From positions 1 to 43,449 of the IMG/VR virus record IMGVR_UViG_3300043436_001759: a DNA stretch of 43,449 bases; one strand, 5' to 3'. The stretch is from a virus. This document shows positions 9,186 to 30,078 of the stretch, one piece after another (position 1 is the stretch's first letter; each line of letters starts with the position of its first letter). The position numbers and the translations under genes are program-made. The notes under the pieces were generated by a model. The model made no database searches. It was not told the DNA's origin and worked only from the letters and a program-made list of their open reading frames with translations.

Positions 9186-9490
9186 TGCCGTCAACACCAA
9201 AAACTTTATTCCGTGGAGCAGCCACTACAACAGTAGGTACTACGCTTTACACGGTCCCCTCTGCAACTACTACCGTAGTGACCAGCATCGTCGTGACTAA
9301 CACTGCAAGCTCTTCAGGAACCTTTACAATAGCTCTTGGTGGGACTAACTTTGCAACTACTGTTTTAGTGGGAGCACTTGATTCAACAATTATTGATATT
9401 AAGCAAGTATTGACCGCTGCACAGACAATCACAGGCGGTGCTTCTGCTACCACAATCAACTTCCACATCGGAGGAGTTGAGATTTCCTAA
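9185..9490 (+). CDS. Small beta-sandwich fibre-associated protein, copy 1
   Basis: 101 residues, Thr/Val/Ile/Ala-rich with alternating hydrophobic pattern, predicted all-beta. It is a diverged paralogue of 11001-11333: both have TTLYTVP near residue 20-30, a VVTSIVVTN/VVSTLVIAN strand, and end with a G-(V/S)-E-I segment. It starts by TAATG overlap with the stub gene and ends the same way into the glycine-rich gene. Likely an adaptor or cap between fibre shaft and tip; the specific role is inferred from gene order only. Confidence 0.6.
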   Translation: MPSTPKTLFRGAATTTVGTTLYTVPSATTTVVTSIVVTNTASSSGTFTIALGGTNFATTVLVGALDSTIIDIKQVLTAAQTITGGASATTINFHIGGVEIS

Positions 9491-10374
9491 TGGGCGTTTA
9501 TAGACTTAGGGACGGTAGTTCACTAAACTCAAGTAGAACAATCTACAAATCAATGAAATTTGTACCACCTACTTTATCTATAAAATACTTAGTAGTTGCT
9601 GGTGGCGGAGGTGGCGGTCAAGTTGGTGGAGGTGGAGGAGCTGGTGGTTTTCGCACAAGTGTTCCTGGGCAAACCTCTGGAGGAGGCGCATCTGCTGAAT
9701 CGCCAGTAATTTTAACAGCTGGCCCCACTTACACAGTAACAGTAGGCGCTGGTGGTGCTGGTGCTAACGGCGGTGACGGCGCTGCTGGAGGCTCTGGATT
9801 TAACAGTGTGTTTGCCACAGTAACTTCTGTCGGTGGTGGTTTTGGAGTTGGTGGGTCTACTTCTGGTTCTGGTGGTTCAAGCGGTGGTTCAAGAGGTGCA
9901 GGAATTGGTGCTGCAACCGCAGGTCAGGGCTTTGTTGGTAGCAACAACACCTCAGTATCAGTAGGCGGTGGAGGCGGTGGCGCTGGTGCTGCTGCAACTA
10001 ACGCCAATGGTGGTGCTGGGGTTTCTTCCAACATTACTGGGACAGCAGTAATACGTGGCGGTGGAGGAGGTGGAGGCTCGACAAGCGGGACTTTCGGTAT
10101 TGGCGGTACTGGCGGTGGCGGTTCTGGTGGCGGTCCTGGCAATAATGGTACAGAGGGTACTGTCAATACTGGTGGTGGTGGTGGTGCTGGTGGGTTTGCT
10201 GCGCCTCCTGGTTTTCCAGGAAAACAAGGCGGTTCTGGTATTGTGATATTGCGCTACCCATTTGATTACACAATTACAATAGGCGCAGGTCTAACGGGCA
10301 CTACTACTTTGGACGGACAAGAGAGAGTAACTATAATCACTCAAGGCACTGGCAACGTAAGCTGGGCAGCATAA
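9490..10374 (+). CDS. Glycine-rich receptor-binding tip protein, copy 1
   Basis: 294 residues. Residues about 36-250 contain many poly-Gly runs (GGGGGG, GGGGGAGG) alternating with short beta motifs (TYTVTVGAGG, NSVFATVTSVGGG) and a closing GGSGIVILRYP motif. This architecture resembles polyglycine-sandwich adhesins such as T4-like gp38 and other glycine-rich phage tips, whose loops bind cell-surface receptors. The C-terminal approximately 40 residues (TITIGAGLTGTTTLDG...) form a beta domain shared with copy 2 at 11342-12235. Variation is concentrated in loops between Gly runs, as expected for host-range determinants. Confidence 0.72.
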   Translation: MGVYRLRDGSSLNSSRTIYKSMKFVPPTLSIKYLVVAGGGGGGQVGGGGGAGGFRTSVPGQTSGGGASAESPVILTAGPTYTVTVGAGGAGANGGDGAAGGSGFNSVFATVTSVGGGFGVGGSTSGSGGSSGGSRGAGIGAATAGQGFVGSNNTSVSVGGGGGGAGAAATNANGGAGVSSNITGTAVIRGGGGGGGSTSGTFGIGGTGGGGSGGGPGNNGTEGTVNTGGGGGAGGFAAPPGFPGKQGGSGIVILRYPFDYTITIGAGLTGTTTLDGQERVTIITQGTGNVSWAA

Positions 10375-11341: not shown

Positions 11342-12235
11342 ATGGCTAATCAAAGCCTAAAAATGGCGGGCATTGCAAATAACAGAAAATACAATACGAT
11401 GCTTGCTGGCAACGCAAGTGCCGTTGAGCTTTCCGTTGACCTTCTTGTAATCGGTGGCGGTGGCGGTGGCGGTTACTCTGCTAGCGGTGGCGGTGGCGGT
11501 GGCGGTGGCGCTGGCGGATACCGAGCATTCTCAGGTTCAATTATAAACCCAGCTTCTACTTTTGCTGTATCAATTGGGGCAGGCGGAGTCGCACAGAGCA
11601 CTAGCGGTGTTAATTCAGTATTTCACACTTTTACAAGTGCTGGTGGCGGTAGAGGTGGAAACGGAGCTGAAAACGGTATTGCTGGTGGTTCTGGTGGTGG
11701 TGGAGGCTCGAACCCTGCTGTGAATGGTGGAGCTGGAAACACTCCTGCAACTACACCAAGTCAAGGAAACAATGGTGGAAGTGGTGGCGCTGGGGGAGGC
11801 TTCATTCCTGGCGGTGGTGGTGGTGGTGGTGCTAGTGCCGTTGGACAGCCTAACGATAACCTAATTGGTGGCAACGGCGGAAATGGAACAGCTTCTTCTA
11901 TAACTGGAACGTCTGTTACTCGTGCTGGTGGTGGTGGTGGCGGTGGTCGCTACACTCCTGGTACTGGTGGTACTGGTGGTGGTGGTGGTGGTGCGACCGA
12001 CGGCCCTGGTGCATCTACGCCTGGAACTGCTAACACAGGTGGTGGTGGTGGTGGTGGTTTTAGAGTAAACAACAATGTGTTGCCTTCAAACGGTGGCTCT
12101 GGCATTGTAATCATAAGATACCCGAATCTATACACAGCACAAATTGGAGCTGGCCTGACAGGAACGACAGCAAATGACGGTAGCTTCAGGGTTACTTCAA
12201 TTACTGCAGGAGCAGGCAACATAACCTGGGCATAA
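11342..12235 (+). CDS. Glycine-rich receptor-binding tip protein, copy 2
   Basis: 297 residues. Same architecture as 9490-10374: a short N-terminal part, LLVIGGGGGGG start, poly-Gly runs separated by beta motifs (TFAVSIGAGG, NSVFHTFTSAGGG), GGSGIVIIRYP, and a C-terminal AQIGAGLTGTTANDG... domain ending GNITWA. Sequence between Gly runs differs from copy 1, consistent with a second receptor specificity or a hetero-tip. AGGA about 7 bases upstream of ATG. Confidence 0.72.
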   Translation: MANQSLKMAGIANNRKYNTMLAGNASAVELSVDLLVIGGGGGGGYSASGGGGGGGGAGGYRAFSGSIINPASTFAVSIGAGGVAQSTSGVNSVFHTFTSAGGGRGGNGAENGIAGGSGGGGGSNPAVNGGAGNTPATTPSQGNNGGSGGAGGGFIPGGGGGGGASAVGQPNDNLIGGNGGNGTASSITGTSVTRAGGGGGGGRYTPGTGGTGGGGGGATDGPGASTPGTANTGGGGGGGFRVNNNVLPSNGGSGIVIIRYPNLYTAQIGAGLTGTTANDGSFRVTSITAGAGNITWA

Positions 12236-25352: not shown

Positions 25353-25970
25353 TTATGAAGTTTCTTTTAGGGGTGGGACATCTCCAGCAGGTAGGTCAAG
25401 TATCTCCTGATTGGAAACATCAAGGTTATAGACATCTGCGTAGGCTTTACGCATAGCCCAAGTCCAACCAAGCCAGTAGTGCTCAGGCTGTTCGCCTCGC
25501 TGTTTTCTGGTAGGGAACTTGCTGATTTGGTCAAGCGGTAGCCCTGTATGTAATGACCAGAGTTCCTTTTGCCATTGTTCTACCTTGTTGCTAGCCTCGC
25601 TAAAGGTCAAGCCAGAGCTGTCGCAATACCACTGATACCATTTCAGGTAGGCGTTGGCTGTTGTAATGCCTTGTAGCTTTTTGAGGTTCTCTACCTTGTC
25701 CCTGTCGGTTGCGAGTTCTCGCTCAATAGGGAATCGCTTGTCTAGGTCTGACATGACATACTCAGCGATACCGCCGTCATTTTCTTCAAGCCAAGCATCA
25801 ACAACAACCTTTCTGTAAAAGCTTGTCCCGCCTTGTCTAATGAATCCAAAAGGCATGGTTTCACCTTGTCGCTGTCGCCAGTTGCGTAGTTGGTTGGCAG
25901 TAAAACCTGTAAGGTCTGCTACCTCTTTGGGGCTGTAAAGCTCCCCAAACTTTGGGTGGTAAGTGGTCAA
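25353..25970 (-). CDS. MerR/excisionase-type HTH protein next to candidate origin
   Basis: 205 residues from TTG 25970 (AAAGGA about 7 bases upstream). The N-terminus carries a winged-helix signature (LYSPKEVADLTGFTANQLRN then WRQRQG and SFYRKVVVDAWLE), similar to MerR/excisionase-type DNA-binding domains. The rest (about 80-205) is helical, Trp/Tyr-rich and unknown. It borders the DnaA-box region. It could act as an origin-binding initiator, a loader for the PrimPol-helicase, or an early transcription regulator. There is no integrase, so an excisionase role is unlikely. Confidence 0.6.
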   Translation of the reverse strand: MTTYHPKFGELYSPKEVADLTGFTANQLRNWRQRQGETMPFGFIRQGGTSFYRKVVVDAWLEENDGGIAEYVMSDLDKRFPIERELATDRDKVENLKKLQGITTANAYLKWYQWYCDSSGLTFSEASNKVEQWQKELWSLHTGLPLDQISKFPTRKQRGEQPEHYWLGWTWAMRKAYADVYNLDVSNQEILDLPAGDVPPLKETS

Positions 25971-27190: not shown

Positions 27191-27433
27191 TTATTCTTCG
27201 TCATCTGGCAAGGTAATGCCCCATTTGTTTACCTGCCAATCGGCGGTTTCCCAATCAAAACCAGACTCTACTAATGCGTCTGTTATTGCCTCATACCAAC
27301 TGTCGGCAATTACGAACTGTTCGTATTTGATGATGAAATCCTCACCGTCCCAAAAGCTCACTTGAACCTCCAAGCCATTTGGGCGAGGGTTCACGCTTAC
27401 TTGGTAAGTGTCATTTTCTGTTTTGTAAATCAT
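27191..27433 (-). CDS. Hypothetical small protein
   Basis: 80 residues, beta-rich N-terminal half (TYQVSVNPRPNGLEVQVSFW), then a helix and WETADWQVNKWGITLPDDEE. The start ATG 27433 follows an ACCGAAAGG leader. No family recognised. A 259-base non-coding leader (27434-27692) lies upstream. Confidence 0.55.
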   Translation of the reverse strand: MIYKTENDTYQVSVNPRPNGLEVQVSFWDGEDFIIKYEQFVIADSWYEAITDALVESGFDWETADWQVNKWGITLPDDEE

Positions 27434-27585: not shown

Positions 27586-27614
27586 GCACGCAACGCACCT
27601 TTCCAGCCGTCCCC
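27586..27614 (-). repeat. Leader motif, copy 1 (core CTTTCCAGCCGTCCCC)
   Basis: 29-base stretch identical to 27993-28021. The 16-base core at 27599-27614 occurs in all four copies. Minus-strand core is GGGGACGGCTGGAAAG. It sits between a terminator-like hairpin and the start of 27191-27433. Confidence 0.85.
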
Positions 27615-27644
27615 AGAGGGCCCGCCAGCCCCGCAGATAGGGAA

Positions 27645-27673
27645 AGACCCCGCCAGCGGGGCTAGCGGGGTCT
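27645..27673 (-). terminator. Terminator-like hairpin after 27693-27935
   Basis: 9-bp stem AGACCCCGC / GCGGGGTCT (27645-27653 and 27665-27673). Read on the minus strand it follows the stop of 27693-27935 and is followed by TTTCCC. A moderate rho-independent terminator. Confidence 0.6.
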
Positions 27674-27692
27674 ACGGGGCTTACAGGGCTGT

Positions 27693-27935
27693 TTAGGCGG
27701 TAGTCAACCCCCATGCCCGCTTGATTAGGTTCTGGGCTCTGCTGGTTGTGTTGCTGTATCGCTCAGGGCTCACCCAAGCGTTGTCTAGGTGCTTGCTTCG
27801 AGCAATTACGGTGTTATAGCTAATGACTTGGTATTCATGCCCGCCGTCAACACTCACCCAGTAAGCCTTGAGGCTGTTGCCTGTAAAAGGCTCCCTGTTG
27901 GCTAGCTTGGTTGCTATTGCCTTGTAGTTGTCCAT
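27693..27935 (-). CDS. Conserved phage small protein (YSNTTSR type)
   Basis: 80 residues. The pattern FTGNSLKAYW (about 17-26), YQVISYNTVIARS (about 35-47) and ERYSNTTSRAQNLIKRAW (about 58-75) is one I recognise from small proteins of many actinophages and other phages, with unknown function. AGGAG 10 bases before ATG in the same GGAGCAAACATCATG context as the gene at 28089-28433. Confidence 0.62.
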   Translation of the reverse strand: MDNYKAIATKLANREPFTGNSLKAYWVSVDGGHEYQVISYNTVIARSKHLDNAWVSPERYSNTTSRAQNLIKRAWGLTTA

Positions 27936-27992
27936 GATGTTTGCTCCTATCGTTTCTGCCAGTTTGGCATTACGGCTAATTTATCAGGCACC

Positions 27993-28029
27993 GCACGCAA
28001 CGCACCTTTCCAGCCGTCCCCTGTAGGCG
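27993..28029 (-). repeat. Leader motif, copy 2
   Basis: Core CTTTCCAGCCGTCCCC at 28006-28021; shares 29 bases with copy 1 on the left (27993-28021) and 29 bases with copy 3 on the right (28001-28029, ending TGTAGGCG). Lies between a strong terminator and the start of 27693-27935. Confidence 0.85.
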
Positions 28030-28041
28030 ATTTTGGGCAAA

Positions 28042-28077
28042 GAAATACCCTGCCAGGGGGAGCTGGCAGGGTATTTC
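28042..28077 (-). terminator. Very strong hairpin after 28089-28433
   Basis: A perfect 15-bp stem GAAATACCCTGCCAG / CTGGCAGGGTATTTC (28042-28056 and 28063-28077), with a 6-base loop. Read on the minus strand it is just after the stop at 28089 and is followed by TTTG. It ends the transcript of 28089-28433 before the next leader motif. Confidence 0.75.
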
Positions 28078-28088
28078 GGCTAGTGGGG

Positions 28089-28433
28089 CTACTTCACAAC
28101 GATTACCTGGAAGTGGTCGTCAATGAACTTTTCAGCCTGAGTCTTGGCTTCGCCACGAGGCAAGTCCCTGATTTTGTTCTCTTCAGGTAGCTCACGAGTA
28201 GACCAGGCTCTGCCGTCCAGGTTGTAGTGCTTAATGAACGCTGGTGCGTCCTGGTCCTCCTCCAGGTAGACAATGCCACAGAAATTGTTGCCTGCGTAGT
28301 CCATGTAAGAGAAGTTGGAAGCGAATCGCTCGGCATCAGGGAAGCCTGCCTCCTCGTCCAGGTCGACTGCTAGCCAACCATGACTAGCGTCCTGGACCCA
28401 ACCAATTACTGCGTTTTGTGCTCTTTCGTTCAT
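28089..28433 (-). CDS. Conserved phage small protein (HGWL/LEED type)
   Basis: 114 residues. DASHGWLAVDLDEE (about 15-28) and YLEEDQDAPAF (about 56-66) with a C-terminal ...FIDDHFQVIVVK strand. This HGWL...VYLEED pattern is common in small proteins of other phages, function unknown. AAGGAG 10 bases before ATG. Confidence 0.62.
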   Translation of the reverse strand: MNERAQNAVIGWVQDASHGWLAVDLDEEAGFPDAERFASNFSYMDYAGNNFCGIVYLEEDQDAPAFIKHYNLDGRAWSTRELPEENKIRDLPRGEAKTQAEKFIDDHFQVIVVK

Positions 28434-28509
28434 GATGTTTGCTCCTTAGGTTGCCAGGCTTGCCTTGTGCTACCTGGTCTAGGTCAAATCTACAAGGCAC
28501 CACACACAT

Positions 28510-28538
28510 CGCACCTTTCCAGCCGTCCCCTGTAGGCG
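28510..28538 (-). repeat. Leader motif, copy 3
   Basis: 29 bases identical to 28001-28029, including core 28515-28530 and TGTAGGCG. It lies between the stop of 28594-28860 and the start of 28089-28433. Confidence 0.85.
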
Positions 28539-28593
28539 GGCATGTTTATAGAGCCTTTTATCGTCATGCTCAGGACGCTTGGGGGAGCAAGTA

Positions 28594-28860
28594 TTAGTTA
28601 AGGACGTATCCTGCTAGCTTTAGGTGTTGCTTCAGCTCTAGCTTGACTTGCTTCGCAACGTCGCCCCTCCAGTACTGGAGGTTGCTCAGTGCGTACAGGA
28701 CCACGCTGGTACCACTGTCGTGGTAGTAGTTTTGCTTAGCATCGGTCATGCTAAACATTGGCTCAACGTAGTGCTTGGCGATATTGAACCATGACTTGCC
28801 TCTGCCATCCTTGAAGATAATCTCGGCTAGCTCGTTCAGCGGTCTTGGTGTTGTATTCAT
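28594..28860 (-). CDS. Conserved phage small protein (RPLNELA type)
   Basis: 88 residues. RPLNELAEIIFKDGRGK (about 6-22), AKHYVEPM (28-35) and the helical end VVLYALSNLQYWRGDVAKQV then ELKQHLKLAGY. I recognise this pattern from small phage proteins without function. AAGGGAG about 8 bases before ATG. Confidence 0.6.
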   Translation of the reverse strand: MNTTPRPLNELAEIIFKDGRGKSWFNIAKHYVEPMFSMTDAKQNYYHDSGTSVVLYALSNLQYWRGDVAKQVKLELKQHLKLAGYVLN

Positions 28861-28908
28861 TGTGGTGCTCCCTTCGGTTTAGTTATGACCAGTCTAGTTG
28901 ACTAATCG

Positions 28909-28950
28909 TGCCTGCTGGGGACTCGAACCCCAGTGTCTGCCAGTCAGGCG
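28909..28950 (-). other. tRNA-like mini-helix (T-arm plus acceptor-like stem)
   Basis: Read on the minus strand, a perfect T-arm is present: a 6-bp stem CTGGGG / CCCCAG closing the canonical 7-base loop TTCGAGT (plus 28915-28933). It is flanked by a 5-bp acceptor-like stem GCCTG / CAGGC (plus 28910-28914 and 28945-28949). D-arm and anticodon arm are missing, only 11 bases lie between acceptor strand and T-arm, and no CCA is encoded. It is in the 97-base gap between two early genes. It might be a degenerate tRNA, an attachment-site relic or a functional tRNA mimic. Confidence 0.55.
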
Positions 28951-28957
28951 GTGGTGC

Positions 28958-29392
28958 TTAGGCTTCGGTAACCTCGAAGCTTCTCTCGTACACATCACTC
29001 AAGTCGCCTGAGCTGAATCGTGACATGCTCGGCTCATCAACCGAGATGTCTAGGTCATCAACGTCCTGACCCCGCTTTATCTTCACGGATGCTGACCACT
29101 CGGCTGTGATGAGGATTTCAACAATCTTGGTGATTTCTAGGTCAAGCATTTCGGATAGCTCTTCCCAGAAGATTTCGTCAAGCTCCTCATCGGTCCAGTT
29201 ATCGTTGTCAATACTGTTCTGGATGTATACCTTGACTTTGGTGTACATGTCTTGGTAGCTGTCCCTACTGTTTCGCATACTGGCTAGCTGTTGCTCCTTC
29301 ACCATTAGCTCACCCCTCAGGGTTGCCAGTGCAATCACCAGCTCCTCGTGGGTCTGTGGGTTTGACACTGCGTTCTCTGTGTTCTCAATCAT
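28958..29392 (-). CDS. Coiled-coil acidic early protein
   Basis: 144 residues, acidic. Residues about 15-60 are a coiled-coil helix (ELVIALATLRGELMVKEQQL), then an acidic helical segment (NDNWTDEELDEIFWEELSEM) and a beta-rich C-terminus. AAGGGAG precedes the ATG. First gene of the early minus-strand cluster and thus probably among the first phage proteins made. No family recognised. Confidence 0.6.
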   Translation of the reverse strand: MIENTENAVSNPQTHEELVIALATLRGELMVKEQQLASMRNSRDSYQDMYTKVKVYIQNSIDNDNWTDEELDEIFWEELSEMLDLEITKIVEILITAEWSASVKIKRGQDVDDLDISVDEPSMSRFSSGDLSDVYERSFEVTEA

Positions 29393-29416
29393 GTTGCTCC
29401 CTTGTTTATTTTGCTA

Positions 29417-29432
29417 TCCCCCCTAGGGGGGA
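29417..29432. repeat. Perfect 16-base GC palindrome (possible operator)
   Basis: TCCCCCCTAGGGGGGA is its own reverse complement. It lies about 25 bases before the first early gene start (29392), between the early promoter and the ATG. A dimeric repressor such as the XRE protein encoded opposite might bind it; as RNA it would have too small a loop for a normal hairpin. Confidence 0.6.
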
Positions 29433-29486
29433 GTGCCAGCGGTGTTGCTGACATGACCAAGTTAGCACTGCCGATGTTGTGAGCAA

Positions 29487-29503
29487 CTTTCCAGCCGTCC
29501 CCT
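29487..29503 (-). repeat. Leader motif, copy 4
   Basis: Core CTTTCCAGCCGTCCCC at 29487-29502. The flanks differ from the other copies except for a GCA/GCAA step on the left. It lies just downstream of the early promoter and about 95 bases before the first early gene ATG. Confidence 0.85.
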
Positions 29504-29520
29504 ATATCTAGCTAACAACC

Positions 29521-29549
29521 TCTATACAAGCCTCACAAAACTATGTCTA
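29521..29549 (-). promoter_or_regulatory. Early minus-strand promoter
   Basis: Minus-strand -35 TAGACA (plus 29544-29549, one mismatch to TTGACA), 17-base spacer, -10 TATAGA (plus 29521-29526). Transcription would start about 29513 and run through the leader motif copy 4 and palindrome into 28958-29392. Confidence 0.6.
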
Positions 29550-29564
29550 CTAGGAATGCATTGC

Positions 29565-29577
29565 TATACTAAATAGC
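29565..29577 (+). promoter_or_regulatory. Extended -10 promoter of the XRE operon (leaderless)
   Basis: TTGCTATACT provides the TGn extension and TATACT -10 (29565-29570), 7 bases before ATG 29578. The mRNA would be leaderless. It lies back to back with the early promoter, so a regulator binding here could switch both directions. Confidence 0.55.
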
Positions 29578-30078
29578 ATGGCAAGAATTGCAGACCACCC
29601 ACTTCGCATCGCTCGCTTGAAGGCAGGGCTATCTCAGCTTGAGTTAGCCAAGCGTGCAAGCGTACAGCGCAGCGCTGTCTCGGCCATAGAGGATGGCAGA
29701 ACGAGACGGCCTACCGAGAGACTTATCGGTACCCTAGCTAATCACCTCGGCATGGCAGCCGAAGAACTCGACCAGGAGATAAAGACATGGTTAGACAAGC
29801 CATTGGCCCCAGACTTGAGACCCGCTGCGGAGAACTTAATGCTCATACCGCCATATACCTTGCAACAGTATTACCGCAGCTTTTCACAGTGGCGTGCGGA
29901 GATTGCACCGACCCAGACTGCGTTCGCATCTATGTTACGCATGAACCCAGCTATAGTGAGGGACTACGAGAATGGAAAATTGCAAAGAATGCCAGACGGT
30001 CTATCAGCAAAGTTAATGGAAGCATTCAAGCTCAGTCCTGAATACCTAGTTGCACTGGAAGGGTTGCCTCGTGGATGA
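29578..30078 (+). CDS. XRE-family transcription regulator with two HTH domains
   Basis: 166 residues. The N-terminal HTH_3 domain spans about 8-63 with LRIARLKAGLSQLELAKRAS, VQRSAVSAIEDGRTRRP. A second, more divergent Cro-like unit at about 103-150 reads TQTAFASMLRMNPAIVRDYENGK. A tandem HTH of this type suggests cooperative operator binding. It sits in the divergent region between the early minus-strand genes and its own operon, so it is the best candidate for the early/late switch. The next gene (TerS) starts within its last bases. Confidence 0.8.
   Translation: MARIADHPLRIARLKAGLSQLELAKRASVQRSAVSAIEDGRTRRPTERLIGTLANHLGMAAEELDQEIKTWLDKPLAPDLRPAAENLMLIPPYTLQQYYRSFSQWRAEIAPTQTAFASMLRMNPAIVRDYENGKLQRMPDGLSAKLMEAFKLSPEYLVALEGLPRG

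Follow-up and report, generated by a model that had tools for sequence, protein, structure and literature searches.

A 16-base core that recurs four times in front of the early genes of a virus genome probably represents the operators of a phage-encoded regulator with two predicted helix-turn-helix (HTH) domains in tandem, controlling early promoters; this grading covers the operator reading and not the sign of the effect. That the regulator is what binds the sites is likely, and we conclude that through them it jointly adjusts how active the early promoters are. Between activation and repression by the regulator, activation is slightly favoured. We infer that this protein is the binder, which of its domains reads which half of the site, that it binds as a monomer, and the sign of its effect. 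The window (the whole stretch of DNA that was analysed, 43,449 nucleotides) is a 43.4 kb virus record with portal, terminase, head, primase/polymerase and helicase genes.

The core, CTTTCCAGCCGTCCCC, reads GGGGACGGCTGGAAAG on the minus strand, which is the early-gene strand. It matches exactly at 27599-27614, 28006-28021, 28515-28530 and 29487-29502, and no fifth match was found in the window, even at up to three mismatches. The four exact copies claimed in a sequence-only reading of this DNA were thus recovered, and none of 100 dinucleotide shuffles reached four copies (mean 0.27). The 29-base sharing described there was confirmed as well: copies 1 and 2 have in common GCACGCAACGCAC plus the core (29 nt), and copies 2 and 3 have in common CGCAC, the core and TGTAGGCG (29 nt). 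The placement had also been read correctly, copies 1-3 lying between successive early genes, each 5' of a minus-strand gene start. Copy 4 lies between the divergent regulator gene (29578-30078, plus strand) and the first early gene. The core is located upstream of the start codons at a distance of about 85-180 nt. The core copies and the genes they serve are as follows.

29487 to 29502, minus strand: core copy 4, the proximal site, with left hexamer GGGACG at 29496-29501 and right hexamer GGAAAG at 29487-29492; kept in relatives
28515 to 28530, minus strand: core copy 3, a distal site; exact match, conserved in relatives
28006 to 28021, minus strand: core copy 2, a distal site; exact match, conserved in relatives
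27599 to 27614, minus strand: core copy 1, a distal site; exact match, conserved in relatives
28958 to 29392, minus strand: early gene fronted by copy 4; its 144-aa product matches no family
28089 to 28433, minus strand: early gene fronted by copy 3; its 114-aa product matches no family
27693 to 27935, minus strand: early gene fronted by copy 2; its 80-aa product matches no family
27191 to 27433, minus strand: first gene of the early run served by copy 1, 80 aa

Searches recovered homologs of the regulator at 46 loci of uncultivated viruses. A search of 84,980 bacterial genomes by two peptide patterns found no relative or prophage, and 50,697 phage records held no relative beyond the common HTH. 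An exact scan for the 16-mer in 2.9 million viral contigs gave 19 matches, in which the only relatives were L006, L007, L013 and L018; the remaining matches were single copies in unrelated contigs. The motif itself is present at all 44 loci (window included) that have at least about 150 nt of DNA upstream of the regulator gene. These loci carry 1-5 sites each, within about 2.7 kb upstream of the regulator gene, and every site is on the early strand. The sequence-only reading had made much depend on whether the leaders of homologous genes in relatives carry the motif, and they do. In a pattern search of 19 long contigs most of the matches to the motif fell upstream of the regulator gene, and few lay elsewhere.

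Loci typically have a single proximal copy, most often 70-240 nt upstream of the ATG of the regulator, and 1-4 distal copies fronting early cassettes. Conserved sequence specific to the proximal copy flanks it on both sides, TAGCTAnnTATA-like before and TCACAACAT after, and distal copies are followed by GTGYGNTG-like sequence. At the distal sites of L057, L064 and L075, runs of GATGATGATG follow the core instead of GTGYGNTG, at the -35 position of the promoters. Two conserved boxes lie between the regulator and the first early gene, and their distance to the core varies.

29474 to 29482, plus strand: conserved box ATGTTGTGA (minus-strand TCACAACAT), beside the proximal site only
29544 to 29552, plus strand: conserved box TGTCTACTA (or TGTCTATCA in relatives), conserved upstream of the regulator start

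The box ATGTTGTGA was considered as the -35 element of the regulator and rejected, as its spacing differs among clades. Helical phasing from the proximal ACAACAT element was likewise dropped, as the distances (5-9 vs 14-15) are not a full turn apart.

Comparison among relatives resolves the site into two hexamers repeated directly at an offset of 9 bp, GNRAYG-N3-GGAAWG, with a unit of 15-16 bp. The match between half-sites as direct repeats is 4.29 of 6 at offset 9, the next best offset reaching 2.71, and in the GGGAATG clade the repeat becomes perfect (GGAATG-N3-GGAATG). Such a repeat would suit a single chain whose two HTH domains point the same way. The right half hardly varies, partly because the broad site search demanded TGGA (scans without that limit gave few exceptions), and the left half varies between relatives, with the copies of any one genome shifting alike. 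From clade to clade the motif drifts through GGGGACGGCTGGAA, GGTGACGGMTGGAA, GGGGACGAATGGAA, GGGAATGAATGGAATG, AGCAACGAATGGAATG and GGGAACGGCTGGAA. At the variable core positions of distal sites, identity is 95% within a genome and 70% between genomes; the corresponding values for the two flanks are 42/31% and 55/30%.

The regulator is the gene that adjoins the proximal site, and its own promoter lies close to its start codon.

29578 to 30078, plus strand: regulator gene, 166 aa, predicted tandem XRE-type HTH (N-HTH about 8-56, C-HTH about 102-150)
29565 to 29570, plus strand: extended -10 of the regulator (TGC-TATACT; TGCTATACT), 7 nt before the ATG

The N-terminal half places the protein with the XRE/HTH_3 regulators by Pfam matches above the cut-off (HTH_31, 60.3 bits; HTH_3, 56.6 bits). 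The C-terminal stretch alone gives a weak HTH_3 match below the cut-off (E=0.001). An AlphaFold2 model built with 38 relatives (mean pLDDT 91.3) has two helical HTH units, with helices at 8-15/20-26/31-38 and 102-109/113-120/124-131. No solved structure matched convincingly over the whole chain, the best matches being single XRE domains, and the best PHROG matches are general transcriptional regulators. A strong extended -10 is found 6-7 nt before the regulator ATG in many loci, and in another clade it lies 23-25 nt before the ATG, with a ribosome site. The short distance of 6-7 nt points to a leaderless message, and the regulator mRNA in the window is therefore probably leaderless.

Variation in the regulator was compared with variation in the site. 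Alignment to 434 repressor places residues 128-129 at base-contacting positions of the second recognition helix. RD, RN or RK at these residues pair with GGGACG half-sites, KS pairs with GTGACG, and SR pairs with GGAATG, GGAACG, GCAACG and part of the GGGACG sites. In a tree of residues 1-111, from which the C-terminal HTH was left out, a single well-supported branch carries the origin of both KS and GTGACG, and SR traces to one deeper fork. Among 117 columns, residue 128 comes 4th to 10th in covariation with the site, and many other columns covary with it too because of common descent. The covariation reflects two or three independent changes only. In L051 and L052 the central A of the sites has changed while the recognition helix is the same, and the clade of L057, L064 and L075 has SR yet mostly GGGACG. 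That residues 128-129 track the left half-site is therefore supportive, not conclusive, given the few independent changes and the shared-descent covariation of other columns. The site most likely evolved together with the DNA-reading helix of the regulator.

The sequence-only reading had also noted that a strong hairpin often lies upstream of the copies. This holds for copies 1 and 2, which have perfect or near-perfect hairpins with T-rich tails, and fails for copy 3, where a candidate pseudoknot and no simple hairpin is found.

28043 to 28076, minus strand: intrinsic-terminator-like hairpin between gene 28089 (minus) and copy 2
27645 to 27673, minus strand: terminator-like hairpin between gene 27693 (minus) and copy 1
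28551 to 28591, minus strand: hairpin and candidate H-type pseudoknot just upstream of copy 3, in the position that a terminator takes at other sites

Upstream of 69 distal sites, the detector used found a T-tailed hairpin at 42, a pseudoknot at 16, both at 5 and neither at 6. Most cassettes are thus insulated, and each therefore needs its own promoter.

The element at 28551-28591 (minus strand) was detected again in front of about 19 distal sites, and its stems appear to covary, though the search, by demanding pairing, may have contributed to this; shuffled DNA matched at only 1.2%. Over 20 further copies were seen, e.g. at L031:4323-, L047:4642- and L055:4960-. The element comprises a hairpin with a C-rich loop, then an H-type pseudoknot with a CGNC/GNCG stem and second stems such as GAGC, TGAGCA, GAGCCA and TAGGCC, each with a matching partner. 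It sits after stop codons, where other early genes have a T-tailed terminator, and is possibly an unusual 3'-end or terminator element. The pseudoknot region had no Rfam match at E<=5. A further structured RNA candidate, a tRNA-like leader, lies at 28910-28949 (minus strand) shortly before an early gene starts and was also seen in L024, L025, L085, L086, L087 and L089. Its outer 5-bp stem covaries (GCCTG/CAGGC, GCGTG/CACGC, GCGCG/CGCGC, GGGTG/CACCC), and it has a constant ACYGGCAGACA joint and a T-arm-like hairpin with a TTCGAGT loop. Similar DNA occurs at 415 places in 156 phage records (E up to 1), with at most 7 in a listed genome. The records are mostly of Streptomyces, Mycobacterium and Gordonia phages, and nearly all of the listed places are unannotated. 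The leader belongs to no Rfam family, and a tRNA search found none.

Promoter signals lie downstream of the core. Distal sites are enriched for a -10-like hexamer 20-28 nt beyond the core (z about 5-6), the commonest distance being 24, and proximal sites for a -35/-10 pair in the same position (z 5.3). With the -10 taken at -12, the core falls at about -50 to -37. The distal promoters have no clear -35 signal (z 1.6), and some are without a convincing -10, e.g. in L037, L047 and L061. The predicted elements in the window are listed below.

29459 to 29464, minus strand: predicted -10-like TAACTT of copy 4, 24 nt after GGAA
28487 to 28492, minus strand: predicted -10-like TAGATT of copy 3, 24 nt after GGAA
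27978 to 27983, minus strand: predicted -10-like TAAATT of copy 2, 24 nt after GGAA
27572 to 27577, minus strand: predicted -10-like TAATGT of copy 1, 23 nt after GGAA; assigned by inspection, the enrichment being class-wide

A placement of the core downstream of the start site was rejected, since at distal sites the -10 signals upstream of the core are weak, and T-runs of terminators confound them. A sigma-54 reading of GG...GC was also rejected by inspection, the spacing being unfit and copy 4 being without the pattern.

The proposed mechanism begins with the regulator, which would be made first, from its own extended -10 promoter and probably as a leaderless mRNA. One molecule would read the two direct half-sites 9 bp apart, the N-terminal HTH probably reading the constant half GGAAWG and the C-terminal HTH the variable half GNRAYG. 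Each of the four sites would occupy about -50 to -37 of its own early-strand promoter, and each promoter would drive an early cassette of small genes that a terminator or pseudoknot would insulate from the preceding one. Insulated cassettes with separate promoters, each with a site, suggest that one protein controls the cassettes together. Docked just upstream of the -35 position, the regulator would aid the host RNA polymerase at these promoters, the distal ones of which have no recognisable -35, and an occupied proximal site may also affect the regulator's own upstream region.

The sequence-only reading had offered a regulatory RNA element, a phage-protein binding site or a promoter part acting on a small regulon. 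A phage-protein binding site at a small set of early promoters is the part that stands, since the site is conserved with the adjacent regulator, changes in concert, faces a protein with two predicted HTHs and has a -10-like element at a roughly fixed distance. The RNA option did not survive for the core. A leader element working post-transcriptionally would agree with the position of the core in intergenic leaders and with the other structured RNAs of the region; it is nevertheless extremely improbable, as the whole window, core included, had no Rfam match at gathering score, direct-repeat half-sites cannot self-pair, and the predicted start sites are downstream of the core. Hardly more credible are a role as a repeat in replication or packaging, or the maintenance of the core at cassette boundaries to allow gene shuffling by homologous recombination. 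The sites do stand at the front of small-gene cassettes and copies have 29-bp blocks in common, but it is the two half-sites that are conserved most strongly while the flanks diverge, the sites are 400-1000 bp apart and tied to -10 elements, and site variation tracks a DNA-binding protein. A different binder is unlikely, be it a host factor or another phage regulator such as the 205-aa protein at 25353-25970 (minus strand). This protein has an HTH_17/excisionase-like DNA-binding domain at its N-terminus and is conserved in 17 of 19 contigs although integrase is absent. It is undetectable in G005 and G006, however, which both bear the motif; a single HTH was matched in it, against a bipartite direct-repeat site; and changes in the left half-site follow the second recognition helix of the 29578 protein. 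The clade-specific concerted change is hard to explain by a host factor.

Repression by the same protein at the same sites is a serious contender, at somewhat less than an even chance. The regulator would then be an immunity-type repressor or an early shut-off factor that blocks initiation and possibly elongation, as at cluster A stoperators. It is favoured by the gene layout, a divergent XRE gene beside an early operon being the classic arrangement of immunity regions, and by the closest characterised analog, which is a repressor (PMC9283540). The sites point in the direction of transcription, as those of cluster A do (PMC6550527). Because the footprint of RNA polymerase includes -50 to -37, an occupied site could exclude the enzyme, and the proximal site also adjoins a -10-like element reading towards the regulator. 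Against repression, the sites hold a roughly constant place upstream of the -10 rather than covering it, and they are few, without scatter across late genes. A lysogenic role is made doubtful by the want of relatives in bacterial genomes and by the gene content of 19 contigs (the window and 18 related ones, which may be incomplete), where no tyrosine or serine integrase and no ParA were found (PF00589, PF00239, PF13614; controls positive). Despite the divergent XRE regulator, the viruses of this group are probably lytic. Four points tip the balance slightly towards activation: the sites keep a roughly constant distance just upstream of the -35 position, the distal promoters lack a -35, the regulator's own promoter looks strongest, and integrase and ParA were not found in the 19 contigs. 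The missing -35 is a weak argument, as -35 elements of actinobacterial promoters are often weak anyway. Elsewhere in the window, two neighbouring genes at 9490-10374 and 11342-12235 (both plus strand) match PHROG 2295 of unknown function and are likely a duplication.

As an activator, the regulator would be a master switch for the early genes of viruses that have no recognisable lysogeny module. The larger proposal, held tentatively and at rather less than even confidence, is a new family of activators with tandem HTHs in a single chain, belonging to lytic actinophage-like viruses. Such activators would recognise a direct repeat with 9-bp spacing where a -35 would otherwise stand and would turn on insulated early cassettes, with co-evolution of site and protein providing a natural series of altered DNA specificities. 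Phage regulators that read non-palindromic DNA by one chain are rare, the cluster A repressor being a solved example. Dozens of natural protein/site pairs with altered half-sites make a recognition code for the second HTH directly testable. The site marks each early cassette, and early-gene regulons of uncultivated phages can thus be found by sequence alone.

By analogy, the system would work like the cluster A repressor and its stoperators, of which it is neither a demonstrated member nor a detectable homolog. The repressor of cluster A phages (L5, TipsytheTRex) is small, with an N-terminal HTH and a second DNA-binding domain, and reads non-palindromic sites of 13-16 bp (PMC9283540, PMC6550527). 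Both systems have two DNA-reading domains in one chain (predicted here), asymmetric sites oriented with transcription, a variable middle of the site, and site sequences that diverge between phage groups along with the protein. The cluster A protein is a monomer with two DNA-binding domains on an asymmetric site; here two HTH units are predicted and the site is bipartite and asymmetric. The second domain here is an ordinary HTH with XRE helix order (predicted) rather than the Stoperator fold. The sites number 1-5, mostly only upstream of the regulator gene, in contrast to 20-30 genome-wide in cluster A, most of them off promoters. Cluster A has integrase or parABS for prophage maintenance, neither integrase nor ParA having been found in the 19, maybe incomplete, contigs here. 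Against cluster A Rep, BLASTP matched a 36-aa HTH only (E=0.005) and hhalign 23 columns (probability 37%), and 7TZ1/7R6R were outside the top 50 matches of the regulator model in a Foldseek search of the PDB. The sequence GACGGCTGGAAAG agrees at 9 of 13 positions with the L5 stoperator consensus; this likeness was set aside because no homology was detected between the proteins.

Several phage activators take over the role of a -35, among them lambda CII, T4 MotA, P2 Ogr and Mu Mor/C, and lambda CII reads a direct repeat as a tetramer of single HTH units. The present sites resemble those of CII-type activators in lying just upstream of a -10 without a -35, and in the case of CII also in the direct repeat, but both HTHs are in one chain here (predicted). 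Membership in any of these activator families was not found, the PHROG CII-like match (E=1e-4) spanning the common HTH only. The SAS/ESAS of cluster K phages place GGGATAGGAGCCC (13-bp) at translation starts in 11-19 copies (PMC3203893). They share with the core a short asymmetric repeat before a subset of early genes, mostly in one orientation, in actinophages; the core differs from them in sequence, in its position about 85-180 nt upstream of start codons and in being a direct repeat. The lytic Gordonia phage Vardy, which has no integrase or partition genes, carries a 50-bp intergenic promoter motif with a -10 to which no regulator has been linked (PMC9671010). The likeness drawn to the present system is one of layout, both having a repeated intergenic promoter unit with a -10.
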